Of a stretch of 64,000 nt of DNA, positions 30,959-48,500 are shown in pieces. The stretch is from positions 186,001 to 250,000 of the forward strand of contig NZ_WEZF01000008.1 in assembly GCF_009177065.1 (NCBI RefSeq), written 5' to 3'. A program made the position numbers and the translations under genes. The notes below the pieces were generated by a model. It was not told the origin of the DNA. It worked only from the letters and a program-made list of their open reading frames with translations, and ran no database searches. Origin of the DNA: Tautonia marina (GTDB lineage Bacteria > Planctomycetota > Planctomycetia > Isosphaerales > Isosphaeraceae). Within the stretch, counting starts at the first letter, position 1. Each line of letters begins with the position of its first letter.

Positions 30959-32800
30959 TCACTCGGCATTGGCCGGTTCGGGCACGCCAGCGCGGAAGTT
31001 CCCGACGGCCTCGGAGGTCCGCAAGGGACGATCGTAGACCCGGACCGATCGGAGTTCGCCGTAGAGTCGCGACGCTAGCGTGGCCCGATCGAGAGCGTTG
31101 AGATTGCCCAGCTCGGGCGGGAAGCGTCCCCAGCCGTACTGACGGATCGCGCCTCCGTCATTCAAAATCCCATCCACAACCACGCTGATGATGCGGGGTC
31201 CGGCATCGACCGTGACCACGATGTGCTGCCAGTCGCCGACCTTCAAGGTGCCGAACGCGGTGCCGGGGTCGCTATCCCAGGCGGCCTCGTGCTCACCGTC
31301 GCTCAGGGTGATGCCAAGCGTCGATCGCCCAGTGGTAAACAGGTGCAACCCGCGGCCGGAATCATCTCGCGTGTAGAGCAGCGATTGCCCCTCGGTCAGT
31401 TCTCGGAATCGGACCCAGAGGCCAATGGAGAACCCGCCTCGATCGCCAAGGTCGGGCAGGAGAGGCATGGCCACCTCGGTTCCAGGCGCGATCGGATCGG
31501 CGGCCAGGCCGAGAACTAGACCCGAGCGCTCGACCTCGCGGCGGTCCAACTGACCCCAAAGGTCATCGAGCAAACTCGGATCGACCCGGTGAACGCGGGC
31601 AATTTCTTTTTGCGTCTCGGTCACATAAAGGTCACCGCCATCTTCGATGAAATCTGGATAGCTGATGCGAACATTCGGATCATCGTCGTAGAGCAAGATT
31701 TCAGGCTCGGACCAGTGAATGAACCCATCACGCTCGATCCCGCCAAGGACCCATGCCGGGTTCCGCCCCTGATAGGGGTTCCAGTCGTCTCGGTGAACCT
31801 GCTCACCGCCGTGATTGTGAAACCAGTAGAGATATTTTCCGTTCGAAAACTTCTTCACAAAATTGGCGGCTCGGGGATGCTTCACCCGGCGACCCTCGGG
31901 ACCATACGTCATGTAGGCGGACGGGGTCCAGGTTCGCCCCCCGTCTCTGCTATACGCATGGCATGGGTAGCCGTCGATGGTCCGATACGTGGCGAACAGC
32001 GAACCGTCGGAGAGCGCGACCAGGTTGGCCTCATCGGACACGGGACCTTTCGGAGCCCGCAATCCTTCATCTCCCTCCGGGAGCAGCTCCCAGCGGATGC
32101 GGGTCGGGTCGGGCTCGGTCAAGATGTTGTCGCTTCGCATGAACACGCCTTGCGATTCGACCATACCTCCGGGAACACCCCACTTGCCCACCTTGGCGAA
32201 CCCGAAATAGGCCGCGTCGCCGGTGGTGATCGGCTTCCCAACGCCCCAGAAAAACAGGGTCTCGCCACCGGTGGTGTTCCCTCGATCGATCCGCATGGAT
32301 CGCATCGGGATCTCCAGGCGATCGTCCGACCAGGTCAGGCCGCCATCGTCGCTCCACTTGAAGGCGTAGGCCCCCAGGGTATCGACGCGACGTCCCACGT
32401 TCGGGCTATTCGAGGGCACCTCTCGAAGGTTCTTCGAGTTATAGGTGTAAAATGCGTAGATTCGTCCGCTGGGCACCTTCAAGGGCATGACCCACGAGGC
32501 TTCCGGCCCGTCGCTCGGTTCAATCGGAATCAGGTCCGACCACGTCCGGCCTCGGTCGTGGCTGATGGTGGCGACGATGTGCTGACCGACCGCCCCCTCC
32601 TTACCCTCACCGGTGGTCATCGTACAGAGCCAGTGCCCCTGATCGGTCACGACCACGTAAGGCTGATCGCAATAGCCCTCGTCGGGGATGGTCCAGCCGT
32701 TGCGAATCCGCCTCGGATCCTCCTGCGCAGAAGCGGGATCTGGCACCACCAGCAACGCCGGCAGACCAACACAGCACGAAACAAGCACTCGGAACAGCAT
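30959..32800 (-). CDS. Secreted BNR-repeat sialidase-like protein with a LamG domain
   Basis: Protein of 613 residues with a signal peptide (about 1-26, ending DPASAQ). Residues 30-420 form a six-bladed sialidase-type propeller with Asp-box-like turns: SHDRGRTWSD, SDDGGLTWSD and SRDGGRTWT (S-x-D-x-G-x-T-W). Residues 425-613 form a LamG/concanavalin-like jelly roll (GFSIGLWVRF, DWQHIVVTVD, RSVRVYDRPL). The architecture suits an extracellular exo-sialidase or another BNR glycosidase with a carbohydrate-binding module. The catalytic Arg triad was not mapped. ATG 32800 directs a proper signal peptide; the longer frame is not supported. It lies 102 bases after the last amidohydrolase gene on the same strand. 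Confidence 0.78.
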   Translation of the reverse strand: MLFRVLVSCCVGLPALLVVPDPASAQEDPRRIRNGWTIPDEGYCDQPYVVVTDQGHWLCTMTTGEGKEGAVGQHIVATISHDRGRTWSDLIPIEPSDGPEASWVMPLKVPSGRIYAFYTYNSKNLREVPSNSPNVGRRVDTLGAYAFKWSDDGGLTWSDDRLEIPMRSMRIDRGNTTGGETLFFWGVGKPITTGDAAYFGFAKVGKWGVPGGMVESQGVFMRSDNILTEPDPTRIRWELLPEGDEGLRAPKGPVSDEANLVALSDGSLFATYRTIDGYPCHAYSRDGGRTWTPSAYMTYGPEGRRVKHPRAANFVKKFSNGKYLYWFHNHGGEQVHRDDWNPYQGRNPAWVLGGIERDGFIHWSEPEILLYDDDPNVRISYPDFIEDGGDLYVTETQKEIARVHRVDPSLLDDLWGQLDRREVERSGLVLGLAADPIAPGTEVAMPLLPDLGDRGGFSIGLWVRFRELTEGQSLLYTRDDSGRGLHLFTTGRSTLGITLSDGEHEAAWDSDPGTAFGTLKVGDWQHIVVTVDAGPRIISVVVDGILNDGGAIRQYGWGRFPPELGNLNALDRATLASRLYGELRSVRVYDRPLRTSEAVGNFRAGVPEPANAE

Positions 32801-32902
32801 GGCAAGACCTCGAACATCGGTGGAAGGCCACATCGATTCCGAGGGTATCCAACCTCGACCAGGGTCGCAAGCAACAGACTCCGCGACCCTGGTCGTCATC
32901 AC

Positions 32903-34552
32903 TCAACGGCTGTTCCGATCGAAGACCGGATAAACGCGATCTTCGGCCCGCTTGTACCGAACCTTGCCATTGACGATCGCTGTTTCGACATACGTGCGAT
33001 AATCGAGCGGAGCCCCGTCAAGGACGAGCAGATCCGCATCCTTGCCTGTTTCGATGCTGCCGATCCGATCGTCAAGCCCCAGGATGCGGGCCGGAACGAT
33101 GGTTAGCGCGGCCAGGGCGGTCGATTCGGAAGCCCCGCCTCGAACGGCAAAGGCCGCTTCCAAAGGAAGGCTGGTCAGGTCTCGACCAGCCAGGCCGTTC
33201 AGGCTGACCCCGCTCGACAGGGGCGTGATGGCGAAGGAAACCGATGCGCTCTGGAGAATGCCTGGTGTCTCGATGGACGTGCCGGTCGAATCCTCCCGCC
33301 CCGGTTGCGGACTCCGTCGTGATCGAGGGGTCAGAACGACCGGCACGCCGGCCTTCCCCAGATCCTCGGCAACCACCCACGATTCGGCACCCCCATCGAT
33401 GACGAGGCGATAGTCCAACTCGCGGGCAAGCGCCACCATGCTTCGGATGCCATCGGCGGAATCCGCAGAGATTCTCAACGGAATTTCCTTCTTGACGAGC
33501 CGAATCAGACCGTCATCCACCGGCTTCCGAGGCTCCTTGATGTCTTTCTTTCCGGCCTCTTTATCGGCCTCGTATTGCGCAAGGTCTTCAAGATACGAGC
33601 GAGCTTTCTTGACGTTTTCACGCCAGCTATACAGATTAAACGGGCCGACCAGCGATGACGCCGGCAAACTGTAGAACGGGTCTTCGGCCAGGAGCATTCC
33701 GGAAAGCTCGCCGTAGGCCAGCTTGATAACGGCGTGGTTGTTCGGTCGCGGACGAACCGGCGAAGGCGGAGCGAGTGGTTCAGGAAGCGTTTCGATGACC
33801 GTGGCCGAGCAATGGGCACATGCGCCGGATCGGTCGATTTCACTGAAAAATCGATCATCGAACGGTGAAACCATTCCGGGACCATCTCCTCCCGCGAACA
33901 GACCCAGCGATTCGTCGTGCGACTCGTCCTGACCATCCCCATGCTCAGACGCATGAGCGACCAGATGATCGAGCACGTCTTGACCGATCTGCCCCTCTCG
34001 GACGAGTGCAATCAAATCTTCAAGGGTCAGCTCAACCAGACCGGGATGTTCGGAACCGGGACCACTCTCGAAGCGGAAGCGAAATCCCGACGAGCTTCCC
34101 ACCTGAACAGCCCCGGCCGTGATCCCTGAGCCGAGACAGAACTTCATGGTTCGATCGAACGGATCCAGCGCATCGGCCACCTTGTTGCTACTGCCGATGG
34201 ACCTCGTGCGCACCGCCGGCCCCAACCCCACGCCACTCATTTCCAGCGCAATAAATCCGGGCGTGATGACTTTGCCCGCCGCGTCGATCACCTCGGCGTT
34301 GTCAGGCACCTCAATTTCCTGGCCGACCTCCTGGATTTTTCCGTCCTGGATCAGGATGGTCCCACGCCGAATCGTCCCTTGTGTCACCGTCTCGATGTCG
34401 CCCCCCACGATCGCCAGCACCGGACCGGACGTTTGGGACTCGCCTGCGTCGTCCGACTCGGTCGCCGACTCGGACTGGGCAAACACGAACCCCGTGGACA
34501 GCAGGACCAGGACAAGGGGGATCAGGTTGCGAAGCCATTCAATCGGTTTCAT
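32903..34552 (-). CDS. Secreted amidohydrolase-superfamily protein, metal site lost
   Basis: A 549-residue protein with a signal peptide (about 1-25, FVFAQ). The N-terminal beta-sandwich half (GTIRRGTILIQDGKIQEVG) and the C-terminal end GSIETGKDADLLVLDG are typical of imidazolonepropionase/dihydroorotase-like amidohydrolases. After the PGF turn, where family members have DxHxH, it reads IALEMS, with no His. The later metal His positions are also replaced (PLRISAD, IDGGAE). A His/Asp/Glu-rich stretch (HASEHGDGQDESHDE, about 190-215) and an ACAHC motif (about 245) are extra. Its start overlaps the previous gene by 14 bases. Last of the seven-gene array. Probably non-catalytic as written. Confidence 0.82.
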   Translation of the reverse strand: MKPIEWLRNLIPLVLVLLSTGFVFAQSESATESDDAGESQTSGPVLAIVGGDIETVTQGTIRRGTILIQDGKIQEVGQEIEVPDNAEVIDAAGKVITPGFIALEMSGVGLGPAVRTRSIGSSNKVADALDPFDRTMKFCLGSGITAGAVQVGSSSGFRFRFESGPGSEHPGLVELTLEDLIALVREGQIGQDVLDHLVAHASEHGDGQDESHDESLGLFAGGDGPGMVSPFDDRFFSEIDRSGACAHCSATVIETLPEPLAPPSPVRPRPNNHAVIKLAYGELSGMLLAEDPFYSLPASSLVGPFNLYSWRENVKKARSYLEDLAQYEADKEAGKKDIKEPRKPVDDGLIRLVKKEIPLRISADSADGIRSMVALARELDYRLVIDGGAESWVVAEDLGKAGVPVVLTPRSRRSPQPGREDSTGTSIETPGILQSASVSFAITPLSSGVSLNGLAGRDLTSLPLEAAFAVRGGASESTALAALTIVPARILGLDDRIGSIETGKDADLLVLDGAPLDYRTYVETAIVNGKVRYKRAEDRVYPVFDRNSR

Positions 34553-35795
34553 AGACGGTCTTCCCTTCGAGAATGACGGTACGAAGGCGGCTGTACGGGT
34601 CGAACGGATCGCCGTCGAACATCAGGAGCGACGCGGACTTGCCCTCCTCGATCCGACCGAGCGAGTCTCCCATGCCAATCAATTCGGCCGGGCGGCTGGT
34701 GAGTGCTTTGAGGGCTTCATCTCGGGGAAGTCCGGTGGCGATCAGGTAGCCAATATCGAACAATGGCGTATCCTGGCCCGATTGCAGTGCAGCCCGGCTG
34801 AATCCCTGGGTGAAGGCAAACTTGATGCCCCGTTCATTCACGATTCGAGGCACATTGATTCGATCACGATTCTGCGGCATCGTGTCCACGGTCGGGCGCA
34901 AGACAAGGGTGATCGACGGTCGGTCCGCCAGCTGATCGAGTGTCAACATGACGTCTCGACCCGAAGCGATCAACGCGATCTGCACCTTCTCATGCGGCTT
35001 GACCGCGTCCAAAAGATACAGGATGGAGGCCGCGTTCCCGGCATCGACGATGAGCGGTGCCTTCCCTTCGACCACGGATCGCCAGAGGTCTCGGGATGAG
35101 TTCGAGGCCCCCGAACCTTGCGAACCAGCATCGCCTGAGTCGGAACCGCCACGTCCCGAGCCTCCTCGCTCCGACGATTCCGACCGACTCGCCTCCTGAA
35201 GACTCTTACGAAGGAGTTCCAGCGTGGGGGTACTGTTGGAGAGGGAAAGCATCAAGCGTCCCTCCCGCTCCAGGATGGCAGCGGTGGGATCGTCCGGCAC
35301 GTTTCGAACCACGGCGGTCTGGCCGTAGTCCGGCGGAAGCAGGTCGAGATACGTCAGGCCCGATCGGAGCAAGGGATCAAAGTTTGTCCGGTAGGGGTCG
35401 AACAGGTCGGCTGCTCGCAAGAACGAGGGGGTCCGGCTCGAACTGGAACCACTCATGATCACAACTTGATTTCCAATCACCACCGTACCCGAACTTCCAC
35501 TTAGCGACCCTCGCGCCGAGAGGGCCGGCTCGACAAGACCAGGCATGATCGTGCGGCCGGATGCGTCGATCACCTGTGCCGCTTCGGGAATCGTGATCTC
35601 GTCCAGCGGCCCGACCGCCTCGATCGTCCCCTTGTGCAGGACGATCACCCCCGATTCGATTCGACCGGCTTCACCAACCGTCTCGATGGTCGCACCTTTC
35701 AGCGCCAGCGGACGGTCCTGGCCCTGGGTCGGCAGGGGAAGGGCGACCAGCACAAGAGCCGCCCCGAGCAGCGGGGCAAGGCGGTTGAATCTCAC
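34539..35795 (-). CDS. Secreted amidohydrolase-superfamily protein, metal site lost
   Basis: About 418 residues. The signal peptide is RFNRLAPLLGAALVLVALPL, cleaved after PTQGQ. The family pattern is GVIVLHKGTIEAVGP and GRIEEGKSASLLMFDG. The DxHxH motif is replaced by EPALS after PGLV, and the equivalent of the next metal His is Asp (PLIVDAG). A Ser/Gly-rich low-complexity block (GGSGRGGSDSGDAGSQGSG) sits where sister genes have acidic coiled coils. GTG 35795 is chosen because it gives a normal signal peptide and has GGAG upstream; an in-frame GTG at 35834 would add 13 residues. It overlaps the next gene by 14 bases, so translation is probably coupled. Confidence 0.8.
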   Translation of the reverse strand: MRFNRLAPLLGAALVLVALPLPTQGQDRPLALKGATIETVGEAGRIESGVIVLHKGTIEAVGPLDEITIPEAAQVIDASGRTIMPGLVEPALSARGSLSGSSGTVVIGNQVVIMSGSSSSRTPSFLRAADLFDPYRTNFDPLLRSGLTYLDLLPPDYGQTAVVRNVPDDPTAAILEREGRLMLSLSNSTPTLELLRKSLQEASRSESSERGGSGRGGSDSGDAGSQGSGASNSSRDLWRSVVEGKAPLIVDAGNAASILYLLDAVKPHEKVQIALIASGRDVMLTLDQLADRPSITLVLRPTVDTMPQNRDRINVPRIVNERGIKFAFTQGFSRAALQSGQDTPLFDIGYLIATGLPRDEALKALTSRPAELIGMGDSLGRIEEGKSASLLMFDGDPFDPYSRLRTVILEGKTVYETD

Positions 35796-35854
35796 GGCTC
35801 GGGGCTCCGATTGCGTTGAACTCAAACACGTCACGCCGCGATCGCCGAGTGCGA

Positions 35855-37099
35855 TCAGTAGCGGCGGCGGTCCTTGGTGATATCGTAGATCACTCGACCC
35901 TCGATCATCACCTGGGTCACATAATTGCGCGGGTCAAGAATCGATCCGGTGCAGATCACAAGATCGGCATCCTTGCCCGGTTCGATGGAGCCGACACGGT
36001 CGTCAATCATCAGGGCCCGAGCCGGTTCGATGGTGATTCCCCGAATGGCGTCCTCCTCGTTCCAGCCGTAGCGCACAGCCATCGCGGCCTGATAGGCGAG
36101 GTCCTCCTGAGGAATCACCGGAGAATCGGTATTCACGCCCAGAAAGCCGATCCCGCGCTCGCTGTACTCGGCAACGATACCGTGGATCTGGCCGTCATCC
36201 GGATCGAACCGAAAGCCCCGAGGTCCAGCCATCACGGGAATCTCACGCTTCTGAATCTCCTCGGAAATCAAGTATCCCTCGAACGTCCCGTGACCGATCA
36301 CAACCTTCAGTTCCATCGCATCATGGAGCATTTCGAGGGTGGCCTGGATACCTTGATACCCTTGCGTATGAACAAGCACGGGAATTTCGCGTCGAAAGAG
36401 TGGCTTGAAGTTTTCGAGCCGAAGGTTGATCTCGGGCGGTTCGGCGCGCCGGCCGGCGTCGTACTCGTCCCAGGCCTGAACGTATCGGCGGCCTTCTTCA
36501 AGCTGGTCGCGGATGATCCAGTTCATGCCCATGCGGCCCGAGCCGAGGGTTCCGTCTCGACGCTCCGGATTGCCCCACTGAGCGATCTTCAAAACGCCGG
36601 GAAAGCGAACCAGCACATCGTCAAGCGATCCTGGCCCAGTTTTGAGGATCGCGCCGAAGCCTCCCATGTTCGTGCCGCTGCCGGGAATGTAGCAGACCGT
36701 GGTCACGCCACCCGCAATCCCGACTTTCAGCGAATCGTTGTGCGGAATGATCTGATCGAGCGTCCGAAGGTCGGGGTTCGTTTGATAGACCATCTCGTTC
36801 AGGTCGCCCGAACCGCCAATGTGGCAGTGAACCTCGACCAGGCCGGGCATGACAAACTTGTCCCCGCAGTCGATCACCTCGTAGCCCTCGGGCACCTCGA
36901 TCTCGCTGCGAGGACCAACCGCTTCAATCGTGCCGTCGCGGACCAGTACCGTTCCATCGACGATCGGATCAACCGCGCAAGTGATAATCTTCCCGGCATG
37001 GAGCGCCAGGGGTCGGCCCTCCGATTCCTCGGCGAAGGCAGGACCGGACGCTATCAGCACCGCGGCGATGATCGGGGCGAATGGCGCAAGGCGAAGCAT
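35855..37099 (-). CDS. Secreted amidohydrolase with intact HxH metal site
   Basis: A 414-residue protein with a signal peptide (LRLAPFAPIIAAVLIASG, ending AFAEE). This is the only member of the array with the metal site: VEVHCH after PGL (the HxH pair), His in IPVLVHTQG, His in VVIGHGTFEG and Asp in GVNTDSPVI. It ends DRVGSIEPGKDADLVICTG. It is therefore probably a metal-dependent hydrolase of imidazolonepropionase-like type; the substrate is unknown. ATG 37099 shares its A with the TGA of the upstream gene (TGATG), a sign of translational coupling; a longer frame from 37132 is disfavoured. It has no acidic insertion. Confidence 0.86.
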   Translation of the reverse strand: MLRLAPFAPIIAAVLIASGPAFAEESEGRPLALHAGKIITCAVDPIVDGTVLVRDGTIEAVGPRSEIEVPEGYEVIDCGDKFVMPGLVEVHCHIGGSGDLNEMVYQTNPDLRTLDQIIPHNDSLKVGIAGGVTTVCYIPGSGTNMGGFGAILKTGPGSLDDVLVRFPGVLKIAQWGNPERRDGTLGSGRMGMNWIIRDQLEEGRRYVQAWDEYDAGRRAEPPEINLRLENFKPLFRREIPVLVHTQGYQGIQATLEMLHDAMELKVVIGHGTFEGYLISEEIQKREIPVMAGPRGFRFDPDDGQIHGIVAEYSERGIGFLGVNTDSPVIPQEDLAYQAAMAVRYGWNEEDAIRGITIEPARALMIDDRVGSIEPGKDADLVICTGSILDPRNYVTQVMIEGRVIYDITKDRRRY

Positions 37100-39837
37100 C
37101 AACGTTCGTCCTCCCGAGAAAGATAGACCCATGAGCCGTCGATCATCACGGCAAGCACTCGACTGGCAGGAGCAAACGGCGGTCCGCTCCAGACCACCAG
37201 ATCGGCATCTCGTCCGGGGGCAAGTGTACCGATCCGATCGTCCAGGCCCAGAAACGCCGCCGGTGACGAGGAAAGACCCGCGAGCGCGTCTCCCGTGCCC
37301 AGGCCGAGCCGAACCGCGTAGCGAACAGCTCTCGGCAGGGTTGCCGACCCGCTCCCGGCCTGTGACTGAAATCCGAAGGAAATCCCCTCGGTTGCGAGCA
37401 CCTGGGCCAGGTTCACCGTCGCACGATCCACCTGACGGATCAGGTCTGGCCCCACCACGGCGGGCACTTCTGCGTCGGCAAGTAAGGTTGCGTCGCGGAA
37501 TGCATCGTCGGCCCCGAGCAAGACGGTGTCGAGCGAATACTCCTCGCGAAACAGTTTCAGCGCTGCTCGAATCGTATCCAGCGAACCCACCTCGACCAGG
37601 GCCGGAATCGCTCCGGCGAACAGAGGGCGATACGGTTCGAGCGAGGCCACGGTATTCGGTTTCTTGGGGGCTTTCGGCTCCTCGGGCATTTCCTCCTCGG
37701 CCGAGTCGGTGGTGGGTTTTTCGTCGTCCTTGGCCTCGGGTTCGTCCTTCGCGTCGGGATTCTCCTTCGACTCGTCCTCTCCTTCGTCGTCGTCCTTGCC
37801 CTCGGGTGAGTCTTCCGATTCCTTCTTTGAGTCGTCGTCGGATTGCTTGGAGTCGCTGGATTCGTCCCCGTCCTGCTTCTCCTTTTTACGAGCCTCCTCG
37901 GCCTTTTTGCGGGCCTCCTCGGCACGTTTCTTTTCGTCGAGTCGAGCCTTGGCCTCCTCATAGTCTTTCTTCTTCGACTCGTATTCGGCAAGGTCAGCCG
38001 CGTATTTCTCCCAGGAATCGGCATACGTCTTGGCCCGTCGAAGGGCCGATCGCAGGCTGTTTGCCGAGGCGGTCGCGTTGCCGGAGAGACGGAAGCGGAG
38101 GGCGACGGGATCGCGCAGGACCTTCGGATCATCCCCCAGCTTGAACGCCACGACCGGCGCCGGCGAGATATCGCGGGGGCCGGTCAGGGCCGTCGTGATC
38201 CCTCCTCGACGCGCCACGTCCACGGCCGGATCGCCCGAGATCAGGCGATCGCCGAGCTTGGTGTCCAGGCCCACACTCGTTCGGGAAGGTCCCCCCTGAT
38301 CGCTTCCTGAATCACTCGATGAAGATCGGGACGACGAGGACAGCGGTCCTCCCAATCCCAAATCGGTCGCCAGATCGATCAGGCCGGGAGTGACTACCGC
38401 CTCATCAAACGTGATGATCTCGGCATCAATCGGTGCGGAGACATCGGGGCCGACCCCCCGGATGGTGCCGTCCTGCACCACGATCGACGCATTGCTTAGC
38501 TCCGATCCATCACCGATCTGCACCGACGAGGCTCGAATGACGATCGCCTTCGATTCGGCATCCACCGACCAGGCGCGGCGACCGGAAACGTACACCTCAC
38601 GGACCTGAGCATGGAGATCGAACGGATCAGCGGAAAGAACGGCGAAATCGGCGTCCTTGCCCGACGAAAGCGTTCCGACCCGGTCGGCCACGCCGAGGAG
38701 TTCCGCTGGGGCGGCCGTGATCATCCTCAAAACCTGTTCATCGCTGAACCCCCCGGCGGCAAACTGCGAGGCCAGAAAGAGTAGCTCGTTCAGGTCGGCA
38801 TCGGTTGACGGAACCACGGCGACCGACACCCCGGCCTCGATCAAGGCCGCGGCGTCGTCCCAGGGGTCTTGGGGGGCGGGCTGGTCCGGGTCGGGCAAGG
38901 GAAGGTCTGCAATCCGACCCGGCCGAGAGCGGGGGTCGAGCACGACCCCATCAACCACCTCGGCCCAGGAGTCGAGGCGGTCGAGCCAGGGGCGCAGATC
39001 GGTCGGCCCCACGAGGACGAGCTTCAGATCAAACGTCCCGGCCAGACTAAGCGCCGCCCGGATTTCGGCCGCTCCGGGGGCGGAAACCCGCAATCGAGCC
39101 GTCCTGTCCAGGGCCTCGACCAGCGGGTCGAGCAGGGGATCGGTCCCCGGATCGGGGCGATCGGCCCGAGCAGCCTCAATCAACGATCGCAAGCCCGCGA
39201 CCGCTCCGGCCAGGCTCGAAGCAAGTTGCGGCTGCGTTGGATCAATGGGCCGGTCCCGCGCGACCAGTCGGGGAGGAGGTTCATAAATGCGAGGTGGATT
39301 CAATGCGTCGGATGTCAGCAGAACCCGAAGATCCCCCTCGGCCTCCAGCGTTCGGTCCTCAGGGTCCATCCCGGCCAGCTTGACCACCGCCCCTCGCCCG
39401 GGCATCAGTCGATTGCGGCCGGGGCTGAGATGGACGGTCGTCACCCCTCCCGAGAGCGGACCGGTGAAATCATCGAAGGGATCAAACCCGTCGATCGCTC
39501 GCACGCCGGGAGTCAGAGCTCGTTCGTCGTCGGCCGACACCACCCCCAGGCCCGACTCGGCCGCGACCAGGCCCGGAATGACCACCGACGACGGCCCGAG
39601 ATCCACCTGCCGGGCCGTCTCCGGCACCTCCACGTCGGCGACCTGACCCACCGCGACGATTCGGCCGTCGGCGACCAGAAGCACCGCGTCGTCGATCGGT
39701 GGGCCATCCCCGGTCCAGAGCTTCGCCGCCCGGTACGCGACCACCTCGGCAGTCGAAGTCGAGATCGAAGCCGTGGCCGAGGCCGAAAAGCCGGGCAGAA
39801 GCAGCAACGGGGCCAGAAACAGGAGGCGTGCGCGCAT
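37099..39837 (-). CDS. Secreted two-domain amidohydrolase-like protein with acidic coiled-coil insertion
   Basis: A 912-residue protein with a signal peptide (RARLLFLAPLLLLPGF) and two amidohydrolase-like domains in tandem. The first has PGLVAAESG and the second PGLIDLATD in place of DxHxH, so both metal sites are lost. Each domain ends with a GKDADFAVLSADPFD or GRDADLVVWSGPPFA type motif. The second domain carries a long insertion (+ coordinates about 37660-38010): a Lys/Glu coiled coil followed by an Asp/Glu/Lys/Ser tract that includes DDDEGEDESKENPD. After the tract the fold resumes with PLFAGAIPALVEV. ATG 39837 precedes the signal peptide. It overlaps the next gene in TGATG. Confidence 0.83.
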   Translation of the reverse strand: MRARLLFLAPLLLLPGFSASATASISTSTAEVVAYRAAKLWTGDGPPIDDAVLLVADGRIVAVGQVADVEVPETARQVDLGPSSVVIPGLVAAESGLGVVSADDERALTPGVRAIDGFDPFDDFTGPLSGGVTTVHLSPGRNRLMPGRGAVVKLAGMDPEDRTLEAEGDLRVLLTSDALNPPRIYEPPPRLVARDRPIDPTQPQLASSLAGAVAGLRSLIEAARADRPDPGTDPLLDPLVEALDRTARLRVSAPGAAEIRAALSLAGTFDLKLVLVGPTDLRPWLDRLDSWAEVVDGVVLDPRSRPGRIADLPLPDPDQPAPQDPWDDAAALIEAGVSVAVVPSTDADLNELLFLASQFAAGGFSDEQVLRMITAAPAELLGVADRVGTLSSGKDADFAVLSADPFDLHAQVREVYVSGRRAWSVDAESKAIVIRASSVQIGDGSELSNASIVVQDGTIRGVGPDVSAPIDAEIITFDEAVVTPGLIDLATDLGLGGPLSSSSRSSSSDSGSDQGGPSRTSVGLDTKLGDRLISGDPAVDVARRGGITTALTGPRDISPAPVVAFKLGDDPKVLRDPVALRFRLSGNATASANSLRSALRRAKTYADSWEKYAADLAEYESKKKDYEEAKARLDEKKRAEEARKKAEEARKKEKQDGDESSDSKQSDDDSKKESEDSPEGKDDDEGEDESKENPDAKDEPEAKDDEKPTTDSAEEEMPEEPKAPKKPNTVASLEPYRPLFAGAIPALVEVGSLDTIRAALKLFREEYSLDTVLLGADDAFRDATLLADAEVPAVVGPDLIRQVDRATVNLAQVLATEGISFGFQSQAGSGSATLPRAVRYAVRLGLGTGDALAGLSSSPAAFLGLDDRIGTLAPGRDADLVVWSGPPFAPASRVLAVMIDGSWVYLSREDER

Positions 39838-39944
39838 GATGCGGTGGCTCGGAAGCGGTGGCAGGTCGTGATTCGAGCACATCAACCGAAATCCATCAGA
39901 AGCGTTCGGGCAGAACGGCCGGCCATCATGATCGGACCAGGCCC

Positions 39945-41345
39945 TTACTCCTGATCGGGTGACTCCTCGGCGTTGGGAAAGAGCAACGCTCGCATCCGGG
40001 AATCGTCCTCGCGACGGTAGACGATCTTGCCGTCGATGATGGTGGTATCGACCCAGGTGCCGAGCTTCAGGGGATCGCCGGTCAGAATCACCAAATCGGC
40101 ATCCTTACCTGGTTCGATGGAACCGACAAACGAATCGACGCCGATCAACCGGGCCGGGCGCAGGGTGAGGGCTTCGAGCGCCTCCTCCTCGGGCATCCCG
40201 TATTTCACGGCCATGGCCGCCTGATACCAGAGCAGGCTCGGTCCCAGGGTCGTCGCCGAGAACAAGGACGAGCCAGAGGTCTGAAAAGTGATCGGCACCC
40301 CCGCCTCGCGGTAAAGCCGGGGCAGAACAATCTGATCGTCCCGATCGGTCCTCGGGTCGGTTTCCCAGAAGACCAGTTCCGGGTCGAGGATGACCGGCTC
40401 GTCTCGACCTGCCAGCAGATCGACGGCCTTGTAGCAATCTCGGCCCAGGATCAGGGTTGCCTTCATCTTGTAATCGTCGATGAGCCGCAGGGCGTGGGGC
40501 ACGTCCATCGCCAGCTCACAGTAGAGGAACGCGGGCAGCTCCCCCTTGAGCAGGCGGACCATCGCCTCGCGCTGAGCGTCAGGAGCGGCATCCTCGGGGT
40601 TTGATGCCGAGTTCGAATCGTCGTCGTCCTTCGCCTCGTCCTCGTCTTGCGGAGCCTTCGGATCGTCGGAGGATTCCTCATCGGCCGTGTCGTCGTCCTT
40701 CGCCTCGTCCTCCGATTCCTGCGCCTTCTCCTCGAGCGAGGCCATGTACCGCTTCGTTTCGTCCAGCTCGCGGCGCAGCCGGGCCAGGTGACTCATTCGG
40801 CTCGAGCTACCCGCAGGGCGAAGCGACAGCTTCAGGCCGGCGTCTCGTTTTAACACCATGTCTTCGGCAAAGGTGCCCGAAGTCTTCACCACGGCCGACT
40901 TGCCGCCGAACATCGTGCTGTTGCCGGGAATCGCATGGACGGCGGTCACGCCGTTGCGGCGTGCTTCTTCGAAGTAGATCGCATTCGGATCCACCGCGTC
41001 GACGACCGTCACAAACGGCACGTTCGGGTTCACCTCGTTCGGCTGTACCAGCGGTTCGGGGCTATGCGGCTCGACAAAGCCGGGCAACACCGTCTTACCC
41101 GTCGCGTCGATCACCCTGGCCTCAATCGGGATCTCCAGGTCCTTGCCCACCTCCTGAATCGTCCCGTCCCGAATCAGGATCACGCCGTCGTCGATCGGTT
41201 CGCCGACGATCGGCACGATGCGTCCGCCCTTGATCGCCAGCTGCTCCTGAGCGTCGGCTCCCACCGTCGGCAACACGGCGATCGTGAACGTCAGAATCAG
41301 AGCCAGACCACTGTTCCACACACCGGATCGTTGCGTCGTCGCCAT
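39945..41345 (-). CDS. Secreted amidohydrolase-superfamily protein with acidic insertion
   Basis: A 466-residue protein with a signal peptide (NSGLALILTFTIAVLPTVG, cleaved near ADAQ). Family elements are GVILIRDGTIQEVGK, TAVHAIPGNSTMFGG and GSIEPGKDADLVILTG. The metal motif is VEPHSP, so one His remains and the second is Pro. The next two metal His positions are Tyr (PAFLYCE) and LGR. The insertion (about residues 190-255) starts as a helix (LARLRRELDETKRYMASLEE) and becomes an Asp/Glu tract, then LLKGELPAFLY. It starts 7 bases after the stop of the preceding gene. Probably a structural or regulatory partner and not an enzyme. Confidence 0.82.
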   Translation of the reverse strand: MATTQRSGVWNSGLALILTFTIAVLPTVGADAQEQLAIKGGRIVPIVGEPIDDGVILIRDGTIQEVGKDLEIPIEARVIDATGKTVLPGFVEPHSPEPLVQPNEVNPNVPFVTVVDAVDPNAIYFEEARRNGVTAVHAIPGNSTMFGGKSAVVKTSGTFAEDMVLKRDAGLKLSLRPAGSSSRMSHLARLRRELDETKRYMASLEEKAQESEDEAKDDDTADEESSDDPKAPQDEDEAKDDDDSNSASNPEDAAPDAQREAMVRLLKGELPAFLYCELAMDVPHALRLIDDYKMKATLILGRDCYKAVDLLAGRDEPVILDPELVFWETDPRTDRDDQIVLPRLYREAGVPITFQTSGSSLFSATTLGPSLLWYQAAMAVKYGMPEEEALEALTLRPARLIGVDSFVGSIEPGKDADLVILTGDPLKLGTWVDTTIIDGKIVYRREDDSRMRALLFPNAEESPDQE

Positions 41346-41352
41346 GACAGGT

Positions 41353-42591
41353 TCAGTCCTCCTGCGAGGGCTCGGGGCGGGGGAATTGGACGACGCCGTC
41401 GACCATCACCCAGCGCACGGGGGTCGTGAATTCCAGAGGATCGCCTTGCAGGGCGACAAGATCGGCCGCTTTTCCTACCGCAATCGACCCGAGGCGATCG
41501 TTCACGCCGAGCACCTTTGCCGGCTCAATCGTGATCGCCTTCAGGGCCTCATCCTTCGGCAAGCCGAACCGCGCCGCGAACCGGGCCTGCTCCAGCAAAT
41601 CACCCCCGGACAGGGCGACCGCCACACCGGCCTCGTGCAAGACACCAGCCGTATTCCAGGCCAGTTCGGTCCGCTCGGGGCCATACGCCCCATTGATTCG
41701 TAACGGGCCAAGGACCACCGCCGAGCCCACGGCCGCCAGCGGCTCCGCCACCTTGTAGGCTTCGTGCCCGCCCAGAATCGTCGGCACATAACCGAACTCA
41801 CCGGCTAGCCGAAGCGACGTCAAGATATCATAATCGGTACGACTGACGGTCAAGACCGACCGCCGACCGCGAATCACGTCGCGCAGCGGTTCGTACGGGT
41901 CGGCCTCGATCGGCAAGGTCGTGTCCAGGTCGGGATCGGCTCCACGAGAGGCCCGGTTCATGGCATCGCGGAGCATCGCAACTACTCCCATCCGGTTCGT
42001 CGGCTGGCGGACGTAGATCGAGTCGGGCCGGGTCCGCGATCGGTTGCGTGAGGCCGGATCAGACGCGATCGTCACCACCAGCGCCGCCTCGGCCTCCACC
42101 ACCCGACCTGATCCGGCCGTCTTGACCACCGGGGCCATTCCGGGCACGACATTCTCGCTCAGGGGGATCAAGGCTCCCGCCGTCGTACCGCCGGCCAGCG
42201 CCTCGACGAACGACCGCGACGACCAGTCAATCGCCGGCAAGGGGTTGAACCTCGGCGTGATTTCCCGAGTGATCTCGACCGAAGGCCCGATCACTCCCCC
42301 TGGCAAGTCCACATCCACAAAGCCGGGAAGCAGGGTCGAGCCCTCTCCCAGGTCGATCACTTCGGCTCCCTCGGGAGCCTCAACCGACGCCCCCACCGCG
42401 GCAATCTTCCCCTCCGAAACGAGGACCGCCCCCGGAGCAAAGGTGTCACCCTCAACCGTCTCCACCGTTCCGGCCCGGATGAGAATGTCCCCTTCCGCCC
42501 CGACCGCGGCCCCTGAGCCAACCGGGAACAGCATCAGCGGCAAGATCGCGAAAACCCAGGTTCGAATTCTCACACGAAGCGATCGGCTCAT
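41353..42591 (-). CDS. Secreted amidohydrolase-superfamily protein, metal site lost
   Basis: A 412-residue protein with a signal peptide (TWVFAILPLMLFPVGSG, ending AVGAE). Family elements are GAVLVSEGKIAAVGA, TTAGALIPLSENVVPG and GSIAVGKAADLVALQG. In place of HxH it has VDVDLP, and the other metal positions are also changed (RRSVLTVS, LGGHEAYK). It lacks the acidic insertion. ATG 42591 starts the signal peptide; the longer frame from 42684 is unlikely. It lies 110 bases after the first gene of the array and 7 bases before the next, with the same strand and the same decay of the active site. Confidence 0.82.
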   Translation of the reverse strand: MSRSLRVRIRTWVFAILPLMLFPVGSGAAVGAEGDILIRAGTVETVEGDTFAPGAVLVSEGKIAAVGASVEAPEGAEVIDLGEGSTLLPGFVDVDLPGGVIGPSVEITREITPRFNPLPAIDWSSRSFVEALAGGTTAGALIPLSENVVPGMAPVVKTAGSGRVVEAEAALVVTIASDPASRNRSRTRPDSIYVRQPTNRMGVVAMLRDAMNRASRGADPDLDTTLPIEADPYEPLRDVIRGRRSVLTVSRTDYDILTSLRLAGEFGYVPTILGGHEAYKVAEPLAAVGSAVVLGPLRINGAYGPERTELAWNTAGVLHEAGVAVALSGGDLLEQARFAARFGLPKDEALKAITIEPAKVLGVNDRLGSIAVGKAADLVALQGDPLEFTTPVRWVMVDGVVQFPRPEPSQED

Positions 42592-42701
42592 GGTGCGGCT
42601 CGACTCGGGGTAGGGCAAGCTCCGGCCTGCCGGCCGACGGGGCAGACATTGGTCTGCCCGACAGTGATGGAGATACTCACACATAGATTTGCATCATGAC
42701 G

Positions 42702-45392
42702 TCAGGGAACGATACGCCCATCGACCACCACCGTCAACGGACGGCTCGACAGGTCGATCGGCGTGTCGTCCCAGATCACGAAATCGGCCGGGCGGCCCGA
42801 TTCCCAGCACGAGCCGGGTTCGTCGAGCGCGATGGGATCCATGACGGCGAGGGCTTGCAATGCCGTTGCTCTCGGCAGGCCGGCGGCCACGGCCGAAGCG
42901 GCCAGCAGGCGAAGCTCCTCCGGATCATCGGCCGCAAACACGAGCCCGGCGCCGGCCTCGACCGCCTGGCGAATGCTCGCCCACCGTCGCACCTGCTCCG
43001 GCCCGGAAGGCATTGGCCGCGCCACCAGCACAAGGTCCGGCCCTTCACTCGCAAGGCGGGCGATCCGATCAAGCTGGGTTTCGATCGCTCCGGGGCCGAC
43101 CAGCGCCACACAGCTTCCCAACTCCTCCGCCAAGTCGAGCGCCAGGGCCACTTCGGTTTCCTCGTCCACCTCGATGAACGCCCCGCACTGGCCGTCTCGA
43201 AGCAGGGCAGCGCGCTCGCGTCGAACGGCGTCGAGGCGGTCGATGGCCGGACCGCTCAGGTAATAGTCGAGCGAGCGTCGGACATCGGGGTCGGCTTCTC
43301 CCTGCTCGCCCAGGAACTGTCGGATCAAGGACACCTGGCCCGGCAAGCTCACCGGGAACCGATCCAGGTTCCTCGACGCGGACGAGAGCACCAGATTCAT
43401 CCCGATCACCGGATTCACCACCGGCTCATCCGATCCGAGACGCACCGCTCCCACGGCCCCGCCGATCACATTCGCCGAAGCCGGCGCAAACCCGGCCCGC
43501 AAGACCCCGCCCCGCACCATCTCCCGAACGGTTCGGCCGTTCGGATCGAAGGCATCGACGGCTTGCAGGAACCCGGCATCGGCCCCGGCCGATTCGGCGA
43601 CCGCCCGCCCCTGGCCAAGCGTGCTGTGCGCGGTCAGCAATCCGGGAGAAACGATCGCGTCTCCCACGTCAAAGACTGGCACGTCATCCTCGGCCTCGAC
43701 CGTTTCGCCACTGGCCGCGATGGTCCCGTCAACGACGAGCAAGGCCCCCGGCTTCGTCGTCCCGTCATCATGCACAAACCGTCTCGACCGCAGCACGAAC
43801 CGACTCGGCAAGCGATCGGGCAGGTCGAGATCAACCACCGTGGCCAGGTCGTCCTCGGTCGGCGCCACCTGGTCATTCCGATAAACGACGTCCCCCCCGG
43901 AGAGGACCAGAGCGACGGCCGTGGCCGGGTCGATCGGATCCCCCGCGAAGGCGACGAGATCCGCTCGTTTCCCTTCGGCGATCGTCCCCAGGTCGTCGGC
44001 CAGGCCGAGCACCTCGGCCGCTCCAGCGGTCAGGGCCCGCAAGACCCGATCACGCGGCACGCCTCGGGCGACGGCCGAGGCGGCATGGGCGCGGAGCAGG
44101 GCGGAATCGCTCGGCCGATCGCTGTAGGTGCCGATCGCCCATCGACTATCCTCGGCCGGAATTCCGGACGGCCACGATCGATCTCGGTTGCGTCGATACG
44201 GCGGTGGGCTCCCCAATTCGAGAATCGGCCCGAGCACCATCGGCGTGCGCTTCGCAACCAGTTCCGCTCGCGTTGATTGCGGATCACTCAGCCCCTCGAC
44301 GATCAGTTTCAGGTCAAACTCCTCCGCCAGCGCCAGCGCGTTGATCAGGTCGTCTTCGCGATGCACTTCGATCCGAAGCGGCACCTCTCCCTTGAGCAGG
44401 CCGACCAGAAACTCCTTGGTTTCATCCCGCTCCGGTTCCTTCGGAGGCTCGTCCTTCTTGGTGTCCGAATCATCGTCTTTCTCAGACGTGTCCTTCGAGT
44501 CGGCAGGTGTCTCGCCCTCCTCCTTGCCGTCGTCGTCCCCCTCCTCCTCGTCCTGCGTGGGACCAGCCCCCGAGTCCTCGCCGGATTCGTCCGGGTCGTC
44601 GTCCTGCGACTCCTCACCCTCTTTCGTCTCGGATTGCTTCGTGTCGTCGTCCTTCGATTCCTTCTCGGCGTTCTCGTTCTTCTCGTCCTTGTCCTTCTTC
44701 GCGGCCTTCTCCTTGGCCTCGTTGTACTTGGCGAGGGCCTTCTCGTACGATTCCCACTCCTCCTTGTAGCGCTTCACGCTGTCGAGGGTTCGCTTGAGCT
44801 GCTCGAACTGCTGGTAGCGGAGCACCGAGTTGCCCGACGCGTTGCTCACCCCCAGCGCAGCCTGCACAAAGGCATCGGCCTTGAGGGTCAGCTCCTCAAC
44901 GGTCCCTCCCGGACCAACGCGAAGCACCGCCCCCCGGCCACCGAGCCGTCCCTCGTTGCTCGGCTGAACCGCCACGGCGGTCACTCCCGATCGGGCCACG
45001 TCGATCCAGTCGTCGGCGAACGGATCGACCCCATCAAGGATGTTCAGCGCTCCGTCGTTTCCCCCATCGCGCCGGGTCGCCGAAGGTAGCCAGAGCACGC
45101 TCCTTGCGTCGATCAGGCCCGGCGTCACGGTCAGGCCCGAGACGTCGATCCGCTCGGCCCCCTCAGGAATCTCGACCGCCTCGCCGACGGCCTCAATCCG
45201 GCCGTCGCGCACGAGGATCGTTCCCTCGATCGTCCCGGCTTCGGTCTGTGTCAGCAACCGACCGCCGACCAGGGCCACCACCCCCGATCGGTCGGCGTCG
45301 TCGCCTTGATCCGCGCGAGCCTCGCGGAACCAGGGCATCATCAGTGACACGAGAACCAGTGGAAGCGCAAGGCGCAGCATCATCATCGGCAT
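42702..45392 (-). CDS. Secreted two-domain amidohydrolase-like protein with long acidic insertion
   Basis: An 896-residue protein with a signal peptide (LRLALPLVLVSLMMPW, ending ARADQ), first gene of the array. Its two tandem amidohydrolase-like domains have PGLIDARSV and PGLLTAHST instead of DxHxH, so neither has a full metal site. The N-terminal domain carries the longest insertion of the cluster (+ coordinates about 44390-44800): a coiled coil (SVKRYKEEWESYEKALAKYN) followed by about 100 residues almost all Asp, Glu, Lys, Ser or Thr, then LLKGEVPLRIEVHRED. Several ATGs cluster at 45380-45392; I use the most upstream of these. A possible -10 lies at 45486-45491. Confidence 0.83.
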   Translation of the reverse strand: MPMMMLRLALPLVLVSLMMPWFREARADQGDDADRSGVVALVGGRLLTQTEAGTIEGTILVRDGRIEAVGEAVEIPEGAERIDVSGLTVTPGLIDARSVLWLPSATRRDGGNDGALNILDGVDPFADDWIDVARSGVTAVAVQPSNEGRLGGRGAVLRVGPGGTVEELTLKADAFVQAALGVSNASGNSVLRYQQFEQLKRTLDSVKRYKEEWESYEKALAKYNEAKEKAAKKDKDEKNENAEKESKDDDTKQSETKEGEESQDDDPDESGEDSGAGPTQDEEEGDDDGKEEGETPADSKDTSEKDDDSDTKKDEPPKEPERDETKEFLVGLLKGEVPLRIEVHREDDLINALALAEEFDLKLIVEGLSDPQSTRAELVAKRTPMVLGPILELGSPPPYRRNRDRSWPSGIPAEDSRWAIGTYSDRPSDSALLRAHAASAVARGVPRDRVLRALTAGAAEVLGLADDLGTIAEGKRADLVAFAGDPIDPATAVALVLSGGDVVYRNDQVAPTEDDLATVVDLDLPDRLPSRFVLRSRRFVHDDGTTKPGALLVVDGTIAASGETVEAEDDVPVFDVGDAIVSPGLLTAHSTLGQGRAVAESAGADAGFLQAVDAFDPNGRTVREMVRGGVLRAGFAPASANVIGGAVGAVRLGSDEPVVNPVIGMNLVLSSASRNLDRFPVSLPGQVSLIRQFLGEQGEADPDVRRSLDYYLSGPAIDRLDAVRRERAALLRDGQCGAFIEVDEETEVALALDLAEELGSCVALVGPGAIETQLDRIARLASEGPDLVLVARPMPSGPEQVRRWASIRQAVEAGAGLVFAADDPEELRLLAASAVAAGLPRATALQALAVMDPIALDEPGSCWESGRPADFVIWDDTPIDLSSRPLTVVVDGRIVP

Positions 45393-45485
45393 CGTGTGAA
45401 ACCGGGTCGCGATCTCAGATCGGTGGTGCGTGCAAGGAGGAGAGGAGCAACACGACAGCACCGGGGCGTTCAACGTCTCTTCTTT

Positions 45486-45584: not shown

Positions 45585-48500
45585 TCATGGTGCTGACGAG
45601 GGATTCGAGCCGTTGGCGTCCCCTTCCGTTCGGACCGATTCCGTCGCGATCACGAGCCGGTTTCCGTGCCGGATCAGACGGCCGGAATCAATCAGCGACG
45701 CGACGACCGAGGCCACCCGATTGCGCATCTCGTCGGTCGTGCGAGGGAAGCCGAGCAATCGGCAGACGGCGGCGGGCAGGTCGTCGGGAGCAACCCGAAT
45801 CGCATCGGCCACCACCCGTTCGGCGGCGGCGGCCACCTCCTCCGGAGCAACGTATTCCAGGCGTCGCGAGGCCGTCGGCAGGCTCGATCGGTCGCGCGGC
45901 TGCGGTCGATCGAGGTCGGCGGGCCAGAGGAACGCCCCTCGGCGCCGAATCGCCCCGCCATCCCGGAAGGGGGCCGAGGCCGCCTGCTCGATCGCCTCTT
46001 TCGGCTTGCCCGCCAGTCGCTTCAGGCCAATCGCATCAGCCAGGCGACGAACAACATCCGCCTCATGCACCGGCCCTTCCACCCGGACCACCTCCGCCAC
46101 CCAGGCCGCCAGCCGGTCGCTCGACAGAGCCATCGGATCGACCGGTTCGGTCCCCAGGTCGAGCGTGGCGACCCGATACGGCGGCAAGGCGGGCACATCC
46201 AGCTCCTCGTCGCTCCGTTCCTCCCGGGCAATCGACGCAGGGCGAGGGACCGAGGGCAGCTTGACCGGATCGGTCGGATCGGCCTCGATCACCGCCATCA
46301 ATCCGGCCAGGGTTCCCGACGGGTCGTGCCACCAGTCTGCCGACCAGGCATGCGCCAATCGCCAACCGAGCCCCTGAAGCACCGCCGGACGAATCCGGTC
46401 GCGGTCCCTCGCCGATCGCGGCGCGGCGTACGACGGCCCATCACAAAGAATCCCAAGCCGATAACGCCCCGGATCGTCCCGATCGACCACCGCCAGATCG
46501 ACGCGCGATTCGGCCGATCCCAGCGCCCGAGCCACCTCGTACCCTTCCTGCTCAATCGCCTTCGCAAGCACCTCCTCAAACGTCGAGAGGGGAATCGTTG
46601 AGCCCGCCGAGCCCTCCATTCCATCAAAGGTTCCTCGCTCGGCAAAATGAAGGAAGGTTCGCAGCGAGGCCACCCCTCGGGCCGTCGATCGCCCACGGTC
46701 CAGATCGGTCGCCCGTAAATTGGTGAACACCTCGCAGCGCAAGCGTGCCCTGGTAATCAAGACATTGAGCCGACGCTCTCCCCCTTCCCCATTCAAAGGA
46801 CCGAAGTTCATCGACACCCGACCGTCGGCATCGCGTCCATAACCGACGCTAATGAACATGGCATCGCGTTCGTCTCCTTGCACACTTTCCAGATTCTTGA
46901 CGAAGAACGGCTCGAATCCCCCTTCGGCGAAGAAGTCCTCGCACGACGGATCATCACGCCGCAAGCGTTCCAGCCGTCGCGTAATCGCCTCGGCCTGCGC
47001 CGCGCTGAAGGCGGCCACGCCAAGCGTCAGGCGACGATCGGCCGGCTCGGCCAGTTGTGCTCGGGCAAAATCCATCACCGCCGAGGCCACGGCGGCGGCT
47101 TCTTCCGGATTGGTCCGCGAGCCTCCCCGGTCGTACACCGTCTCGGGCAGGTGCCGCAACACCAGGCCCCGAGCCGATCGGTCTCCCTCGGGGCCGGGGA
47201 AGACGATCAACCGACCGTCGTAAAATTCCCGGTTCGAGACGGCAATTAGCGACTCGTGCCGGCTCCGATAATGCCAGCGGAGCATCCGCCGTGCTGCCCC
47301 CTGAGCCAGGAACAGGCCAAGCACACTTTCGAGCGCATCGGAGGCCGAGGCCAGCCGCTCCTCATCCTCCTCCATTCCCTCGTCACCGGCCGTCAAACGG
47401 TCGAAGAAGGTGGTGGGAGGCAACTGGCGATCATCCCCCACGACGATGGCTTGCCGACCACGCAGCAAGGCCCCGAGGGCATCGACCGGCCGCACCTGGC
47501 TCGCCTCGTCGAAGACGACCAGATCAAACCCAAGCTGCCCCGGCTCCAGGTACGCCGCGACCGACAGCGGGCTCATCAGGAAGACTGGCTTGACCGCCTG
47601 CACCGCTCTGCCGGCCTGTGAGAACAGAACTCGCAACGGCAGGTGACGTGTCTTTTTTTCCAGCTCCCGACGCAAGACGGCCAGGTCGCCCGCCAACGCC
47701 TGACGCCTCGGCAACCGCTCCCAGTGCTCGGCCGCTGCCCAGGCCCGGTTGTGCCCGAGCACGCTCACATCGACCGCCGCAAATCGACCGGCAATCGCCT
47801 CGTGATCCCCTCCGGAGAACCCGGCCAGCGCCGGCCGCTCGCGGGCGGCACGATCAATCAACGTTTCAGCCCAGCGCACCCGGAAGGCCGTTGCCAGCAA
47901 TTGCGGAGCCTCCGGCCAGCTCTGTGCCGCCTCGACAATCGCTCCAAGCCCTTCCTCTCGGCACGAGGCCGCCCGCTGATTCACCAGGGCAATCGCGTGC
48001 AGACGTTCCGCCCGATGGCTCGCCCATTCAATCCGATCGCGCAATTCTTGAAACGAATCCTCATTTCCTTGCAAACGATCCAAACCCGCGAAATCGGCCA
48101 GCCGATCCAGCGCAACACGGTGTGCCTCCAGGGCGTCTCGCACCCGTTTTGCCGGCTCCGAGGCCCGCCGCACCACCTTGTCATTCGTCAATGCCTGGAT
48201 CGTTTCCTCGGGGAGTTGATTGTCCCGCACCCCCTCCCGAACCCGTCTCGCGAACCGCGTGACCTCGGCCAGCTCCACAAAGTCCGACGACTCCCGCTTC
48301 CACTGACCACCGAACAGATGACCGGCCAGACAGGCATGCTCCTGAATGGTCTTGCGAAGCCGTTGCGCATCGAGCACGGCATCCACCAGCCCCAGCATCT
48401 CCGCGTTCGATCGCGGCGGCTCTCCTCGACAAAGCGTTGCCAGGCGGAACCGAGCCCGGCGATACGATCCCGAGAACCACCGCCACCAGCGACGGCCGAC

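Follow-up and report, generated by a model that had tools for sequence, protein, structure and literature searches.

Introduction

Hetero-oligomers that include one or two dead paralogues are already known. The protein Csd2 is not known to have an active site. In Helicobacter pylori, Csd1 and Csd2 form a heterodimer (PMC5053510). The AdoMetDC of Trypanosoma heterodimerises with prozyme, a dead paralogue that activates it (PMC5201418). In the class A aspartate transcarbamoylase of Pseudomonas, an inactive dihydroorotase partner is a subunit needed for assembly, and an inactive pseudo-DHOase domain is found in fungal proteins (PMC4581275).

The window analysed in this study, a stretch of 64,000 nucleotides from Tautonia marina, contains an array of amidohydrolase genes in which a single domain has a complete metal site. 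In our view the array probably encodes one secreted (periplasmic) hetero-oligomeric amidohydrolase, in which the protein named A3 below would be the catalytic subunit, joined by eight pseudoenzyme subunits; the formation of a complex is an inference.

Results

Nine amidohydrolase domains are located in seven adjacent genes, all on the minus strand, at positions 32903-45473 of the window. The original prediction had described just such a set, and it is confirmed by open reading frames, by domain parsing and by the Pfam families Amidohydro_1 (PF01979) and Amidohydro_3 (PF07969), which match all seven proteins above their curated cut-offs. We named the positions in the order of transcription: A7 (A7n, A7c), A6, A5, A4 (A4n, A4c), A3, A2 and A1. 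The first gene transcribed, A7 (42702-45473), has two pseudo-amidohydrolase domains, A7n at about 43863-45278 (ligand columns RVEGY) and A7c at about 42705-43778 (HTEGD). It is followed by A6 (41353-42684), with one such domain at about 41362-42486 (DPVGG), and by A5 (39945-41345), with one at about 39996-41240 (HPYLS). A4 (37099-39885) again has two, A4n at about 38548-39741 (EGSGS) and A4c at about 37102-38544 (ADEGQ); both A4 and A7 are made of two units, with N- and C-terminal modules. A3 (35855-37132, domain at about 35864-37009) holds the sole full metal site of the array. One pseudo-amidohydrolase domain each is found in A2 (34539-35834, domain at about 34542-35708, ASDSG) and in the last gene, A1 (32903-34552, domain at about 32933-34417, ESSGL).

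The genes are closely packed. A1 and A2 overlap by 14 bases, and gaps of 20, 59, 7 and 17 bases separate A2 from A3, A4 from A5, A5 from A6 and A6 from A7, respectively. A3 and A4 overlap by 34 bases when A3 is read from its first ATG and by 1 base (TGATG) when it is read from a downstream ATG; the previously listed values of 14, 1 and 7 were all recovered, the 1 only with this downstream start. A hydrophobic, signal-peptide-like stretch was found at the N-terminus of all seven gene products with our own hydrophobicity rule, in line with the signal peptides that had been predicted.

In the alignment, the metal ligands of A3 are H102, H104, H255, H281 and D336, that is HxH / His / His / Asp. 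Amidohydrolases with this set generally bind a single metal. Of the five ligands, two remain in A7c, one in A5 and none in the other six pseudo-domains. The motifs reported in the original prediction (ARSV, AHST, VDLP, PHSP, AESG, LATD, PALS and LEMS, and VHCH in A3 only) were read correctly. The third metal His, at beta-5, is replaced by Glu in A7n and A7c, Val in A6, Tyr in A5, Ser in A4n, Glu in A4c, Asp in A2 and Ser in A1. A3 also has the beta-6 His and the beta-8 Asp, which had not been listed before. Next to its Tyr at beta-5, A5 retains the first His of HxH.

The best structural reference for A3 is PDB 3OOQ (E 1.5e-53, residues 59-416), with an identical HxH/H/H/D set. Several known enzymes were rejected as identities for A3: it scores 51.4 bits with imidazolonepropionase HutI (TIGR01224; equivalog cut-off 298), 36.2 bits with dihydroorotase (TIGR00857; cut-off 279) and 73.7 bits with Xaa-Pro dipeptidase (NF051886; cut-off 500), which is its top NCBIfam match. 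None of the top 25 NCBIfam matches listed for each of the proteins reaches its curated cut-off, and the reaction can therefore not be named beyond the hydrolysis of a C-N bond.

An A3-like domain (E 1e-15) is present in 41 of the 45 genomes of the window's family, and a close A3 orthologue in five of them, the four of the window's genus and one of another genus. Among 397 Planctomycetia genomes, 13 have an A3 orthologue at E 1.1e-179 or better, the next match being at 1.6e-56. All 13 have seven genes and nine domains in identical order, so the array order is kept in related planctomycetes. Three of the seven genes (A3, A1 and A5) were searched singly in the 397 genomes. A1 was found in exactly the same 13 as A3, and A5 in these and, as one distant match at 32%, in G259, where it belongs to a two-gene pair of an active and an inactive member. 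Active and inactive paralogues thus co-occur. Scattering or independent loss in close relatives, which would have counted against the original prediction, was not seen for A1, A3 and A5, all 13 genomes having the ordered array. Since the array is conserved in other genomes, chance can be excluded; its patchy distribution (13 of 397) indicates that the system is dispensable in Planctomycetia.

When the A3 of another array, L112, was used as the query, 96 of 392 genomes of the phylum matched at E 1e-75, so that at this search threshold as many as a quarter of the Planctomycetota genomes sampled would have an unknown secreted hydrolase system. Leaving out the window's own genome, 95 matching genomes remain; 42 stretches were fetched from 41 of them, picked non-randomly for family diversity and usable contigs. 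All nine positions are present in 33 of these, eight are cut, and L164 (genome G538) is the exception. Within the limits set by the ends of contigs or fetched stretches, 40 of the 41 inspected genomes have the array order; in G538 there is A3-A2-A1 only, and the 915 bases (1-915) up to the contig end contain no A4c that could be recognised. This break may reflect rearrangement, loss or misassembly. At least 21 loci with an A3 at 63-79% identity were found in named genomes, some of them on contigs that had already been found, and there are distant ones too. Altogether, 78 array loci less six repeats give 72 distinct loci, nearly all in Planctomycetota: 52 with nine positions, 19 cut by the end of the contig or fetch, and L164. 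L144, L145 and L174 were scored as complete after re-inspection of stop-to-stop frames, the first domain is itself cut in L133 and L165, and the names of positions in distant arrays rest on place as well as on profile score.

Outside Planctomycetota the observed spread is a lower bound. The array of Candidatus Aminicenantes (L068) comes from one MAG chromosome of 4.35 Mb and consists of nine single-domain genes in the order A7n, A7c, A6, A5, A4n, A4c, A3, A2, A1; its A3 alone has the full ligands. Two further genomes have unusual arrays. G452 has two, L143 and L159, one of Planctomycetia type and one of the other type, and G412 is listed outside this class, yet its array (L141) is of Planctomycetia type. 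Either whole-array transfer or contamination of the assemblies may lie behind these patterns.

The number of A3 copies per locus is one in 58 of the 72 loci, two in seven, three in four and four in three (lower bounds where loci are cut). The non-A3 positions are single-copy, save for split frames in L064 and L152. The claim of a conserved set of paralogues around one intact enzyme is supported, with one refinement: the set consists of nine fixed positions instead of a loose collection of decayed paralogues, and the active one alone varies in copy number.

All five ligands are complete in A3 of the 13 Planctomycetia orthologues and, over the 72 loci, in 93 of 96 A3-type domains, compared with none of the 497 other domains (a few split frames of L064 and L152 included). 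Among these 497, four ligands are kept in a single domain, A7c of L133 (HHDHD), three ligands in three domains, two in 39, one in 138 and none in 316. The incomplete A3-type domains, in L150, L158 and L165, have lost the beta-6 His (HHHGD), and the defect always sits in the last copy of three to four tandem A3; such a copy may mark the onset of a change from enzyme into pseudoenzyme.

The partner domains are not all equally dead, and this raises the alternative of a multi-enzyme pathway, in which several metal-less domains would still be catalytic, either through a changed metal site or without any metal. Certain arrays from other classes have A7c or A4c domains that retain HxH or as many as four of the five ligands. 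At ligand positions of the 13 Planctomycetia orthologues, A5 has His in all 13 and Tyr in 12, and A4c has Glu in all 13; these conserved residues could serve binding or other chemistry. Against such a pathway, most ligand columns of A1, A2, A4n and A6 vary, apart from a Leu in A1 and a Gly in A6, and not one of the 497 non-A3 domains has the five ligands. Alternative intact metal sites in most domains, a finding that would have refuted the original prediction, were likewise not seen as far as these five superfamily ligands are concerned; from sequence, a non-canonical metal site in the non-A3 domains cannot be excluded. We give the multi-enzyme pathway a slim chance, and continue with the reading of A3 as the one catalytic position.

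Across loci, the gaps between genes have a median of -4 bases and are at most 60 bases in 233 of 244 cases; since the first start codon was used for these counts, overlaps are overestimated. Counts of promoters and terminators inside the operon equalled those in shuffled sequences and are hence uninformative. Neighbouring positions are often fused: A4n with A4c in 37 of the 38 nine-domain loci (they are unfused in L068), A7n with A7c in 20 of the 38, A7n, A7c and A6 in L138, and A2 with A1 in L133. No flanking gene is generally common: within the fetched stretches, where some flanks are only a few kb long, the top cluster adjoins four of 59 loci, and in the two of its four loci that were scanned it is a transketolase. 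As the flanking genes differ between loci, the array looks self-contained. In the window, a protein with BNR repeats and a Laminin_G_3 domain (30959-32902) is encoded directly downstream of the array, and a large helicase-nuclease (DUF4011/AAA/MTES_1575, 45585-50348) directly upstream. The latter is a candidate defence protein, its best PADLOC match being PDC-S37 with 1738 bits. A functional link between the array and these neighbours was rejected, because relatives of each stand beside the array only in three loci of the same genus.

Selection on the partner genes was estimated against two relatives. With L010, the nearest relative of the window, A3 gives a dN/dS of 0.06 and its six partner genes give values of 0.096-0.167; two flanking genes lie at 0.13 and 0.096. 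The comparison with L012 yields 0.109 for A3 and 0.128-0.253 for its six partners. The partner genes are under purifying selection and are not decaying. These values bear on the notion that the partners are pseudogenes, i.e., tandem duplicates decaying beside one working enzyme. The partners do diverge faster than A3 (mean column entropy 1.24-1.95 vs 0.70), as this notion would have it; yet their frames are open, they have signal-peptide-like starts, their positions form clades of their own, and their order is kept in 52 loci. Contradicted by dN/dS (0.096-0.253) and conservation, pseudogene decay can be dismissed almost with certainty.

The variability of the ligand columns was assessed in 19 Planctomycetia-type loci. 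All five are invariant in A3. In A2, A7c and A4n their variability is close to or above that of an average column; for A1, A6 and A7n, most former ligand columns are not specially conserved. Nearly invariant former ligand columns are His, Tyr and Leu in A5, Glu and Gly in A4c, and one each in A7n (Glu), A6 (Gly) and A1 (Leu). For several partners, the variable columns speak for a structural function rather than for binding in the former pocket; for A5 and A4c, either remains possible.

The same columns are relevant to a further explanation, in which the eight proteins without a metal site would be secreted binders in their own right, serving substrate capture or sensing in one pathway and co-transcribed, but not assembled, with A3. 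Conserved order and operon structure are also compatible with co-regulated proteins acting apart, and the signal-peptide-like starts, the purifying selection and the nearly invariant columns just listed are what one would expect of binders. On the other hand, the variable columns of A2, A7c and A4n, and the unspecial majority of those in A1, A6 and A7n, do not resemble a kept pocket, and a nine-position order that is fixed throughout the phylum, with fusions of neighbours, exceeds the needs of co-regulation. Separate binding proteins are in our judgement unlikely, although they deserve to be kept in mind, and we retain assembly around A3 as the preferred explanation.

Structures were predicted for two of the pseudo-proteins, A2 and A4, with structure alignments of 18 rows each. 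The A2 model (pLDDT 79.7) has 3OOQ as its best PDB match (E 6.4e-24). In the A4 model (pLDDT 76.8, pTM 0.62), A4n aligns to 3OOQ with Z 41.4 over 354 residues, and A4c to other amidohydrolases, human CRMPs included, with Z of about 25; the contact between A4n and A4c is unreliable because of the pTM of 0.62. CRMPs are not known to have the enzyme activity. According to these models, both pseudo-proteins retain the amidohydrolase fold. Charged inserts rich in Lys, Glu and Asp precede strand 5 in A4c, A5 and A7n, and the one in A4c is predicted to form a long helix of 65 residues (604-668), with a stretch of low confidence after it.

A quick tree-building method, with SH-aLRT support only, was applied to 111 domains taken from eleven arrays and from outside relatives. 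A5, A4n, A3, A2 and A1 each form one supported group that includes the L068 member, while A7n, A7c, A6 and A4c require two changes each. The Aminicenantes A7n falls inside a supported group of A1 and A7n, its A6 joins nine other A6 (support 87), its A7c sits with other A7c under weak support, and its A4c has no assigned place. Because the Aminicenantes sequences fall inside position-specific groups, five or more of the nine positions, probably the full set, predate the separation of the two phyla's arrays, which may share them either by descent or by whole-array transfer. A1 and A7n, and A2 and A5, are apparent sister positions, and A3 clusters with free-standing and paired active enzymes.

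Simpler relatives of the same subfamily exist in other bacteria. A single active gene is found in Clostridia (L072 by alignment, others by profile), and an active gene paired with an inactive one at L082, L089, L108, L111 and L170. Active and inactive domains are fused in proteins of about 885 residues (L014-L016, L044-L047), and inactive-active-inactive fusions of about 1420-1630 residues occur at L017-L029. The fusions were assigned by motif, and only L014, L017 and L021 by alignment. The inactive pair members of L082 and L089 group with active enzymes and those of L108 and L111 elsewhere in the tree; placed apart in this way, they indicate that loss of the metal site probably happened repeatedly. 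One inactive-active-inactive fusion is encoded by the genome that contains the window, on another contig (G000 contig C4, 340346-344794; L017:2347-6795), with three amidohydrolase domains in 1482 residues. Twelve further loci of the family were read for fusions of three domains, and all of them have one (L018-L029). The pairs and fusions likewise have an active domain beside one or two inactive ones, but have two or three domains where the array has nine. The combination of one active domain and inactive sisters is thus found widely, with the nine-position array as its most extreme form.

Discussion

Under the explanation that we prefer, catalysis would be the task of A3, acting as a single-metal hydrolase of the 3OOQ subfamily on a C-N bond in an amide or cyclic amide; its one-metal chemistry is inferred, and its substrate is unknown. 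The eight other domains would have kept the fold, as modelled for two proteins, and the contacts between subunits, which we infer, while their loss of ligands and the purifying selection on their genes are observed. They would hold fixed places around A3 and contribute to assembly, substrate access or activation, the individual role of each inactive subunit again being an inference. The physical complex is inferred too: the evidence for a hetero-oligomer is indirect, consisting of the observed order and linkage of the genes, their co-occurrence and their fusions, and the stoichiometry is unknown. As to its origin, an ancestor which we infer to have been homo-oligomeric may have been duplicated, and the copies then specialised by position; position-specific clades are observed for at least five positions. 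The two-gene state and the two- and three-domain fusions of other bacteria would represent simpler versions of the same principle.

A bolder version of this explanation can be put forward only tentatively, and it may well claim too much: a secreted machine made of nine different subunits with the amidohydrolase fold, eight of them obligate pseudoenzymes, its composition and order kept throughout one phylum and in a second, in which some lineages multiply an exchangeable catalytic position and so change the substrate range. A secreted bacterial set of eight dead paralogues and a live one, with its order preserved across deep divergence, would offer an extreme and tractable example of the passage from a homomer to an obligate heteromer. 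Possible intermediates are found in living bacteria, i.e., the single enzyme, the pair, the two- and three-domain fusions and the nine positions. With these, and with three arrays in which an A3 copy lacks one ligand, the evolutionary path can be followed.

Full-text searches of the literature found no description of a nine-position amidohydrolase array, and a full-text search by PDB code found no paper on 3OOQ, a Thermotoga maritima amidohydrolase whose title states no function. A3 shares the metal set of 3OOQ, and A2 and A4n its fold; the entry has ten chains of one sequence, to which the array adds eight different domains without a metal site. Like the array, aspartate transcarbamoylase has an inactive member of the amidohydrolase superfamily as a subunit; there, however, a single inactive protein accompanies an active transferase to which it is unrelated (PMC4581275), whereas the array has eight inactive paralogues alongside an active paralogue, and signal-peptide-like starts. 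Prozyme is one dead paralogue, in another enzyme family, where the array has eight (PMC5201418). Csd1 and Csd2 are paralogous metallohydrolases of the cell envelope that pair with each other, but they are two M23 peptidases, as opposed to nine amidohydrolase domains (PMC5053510). Complexes of enzymes with pseudoenzymes are known, and there is a real chance that the array described here encodes a machine unprecedented in bacteria.
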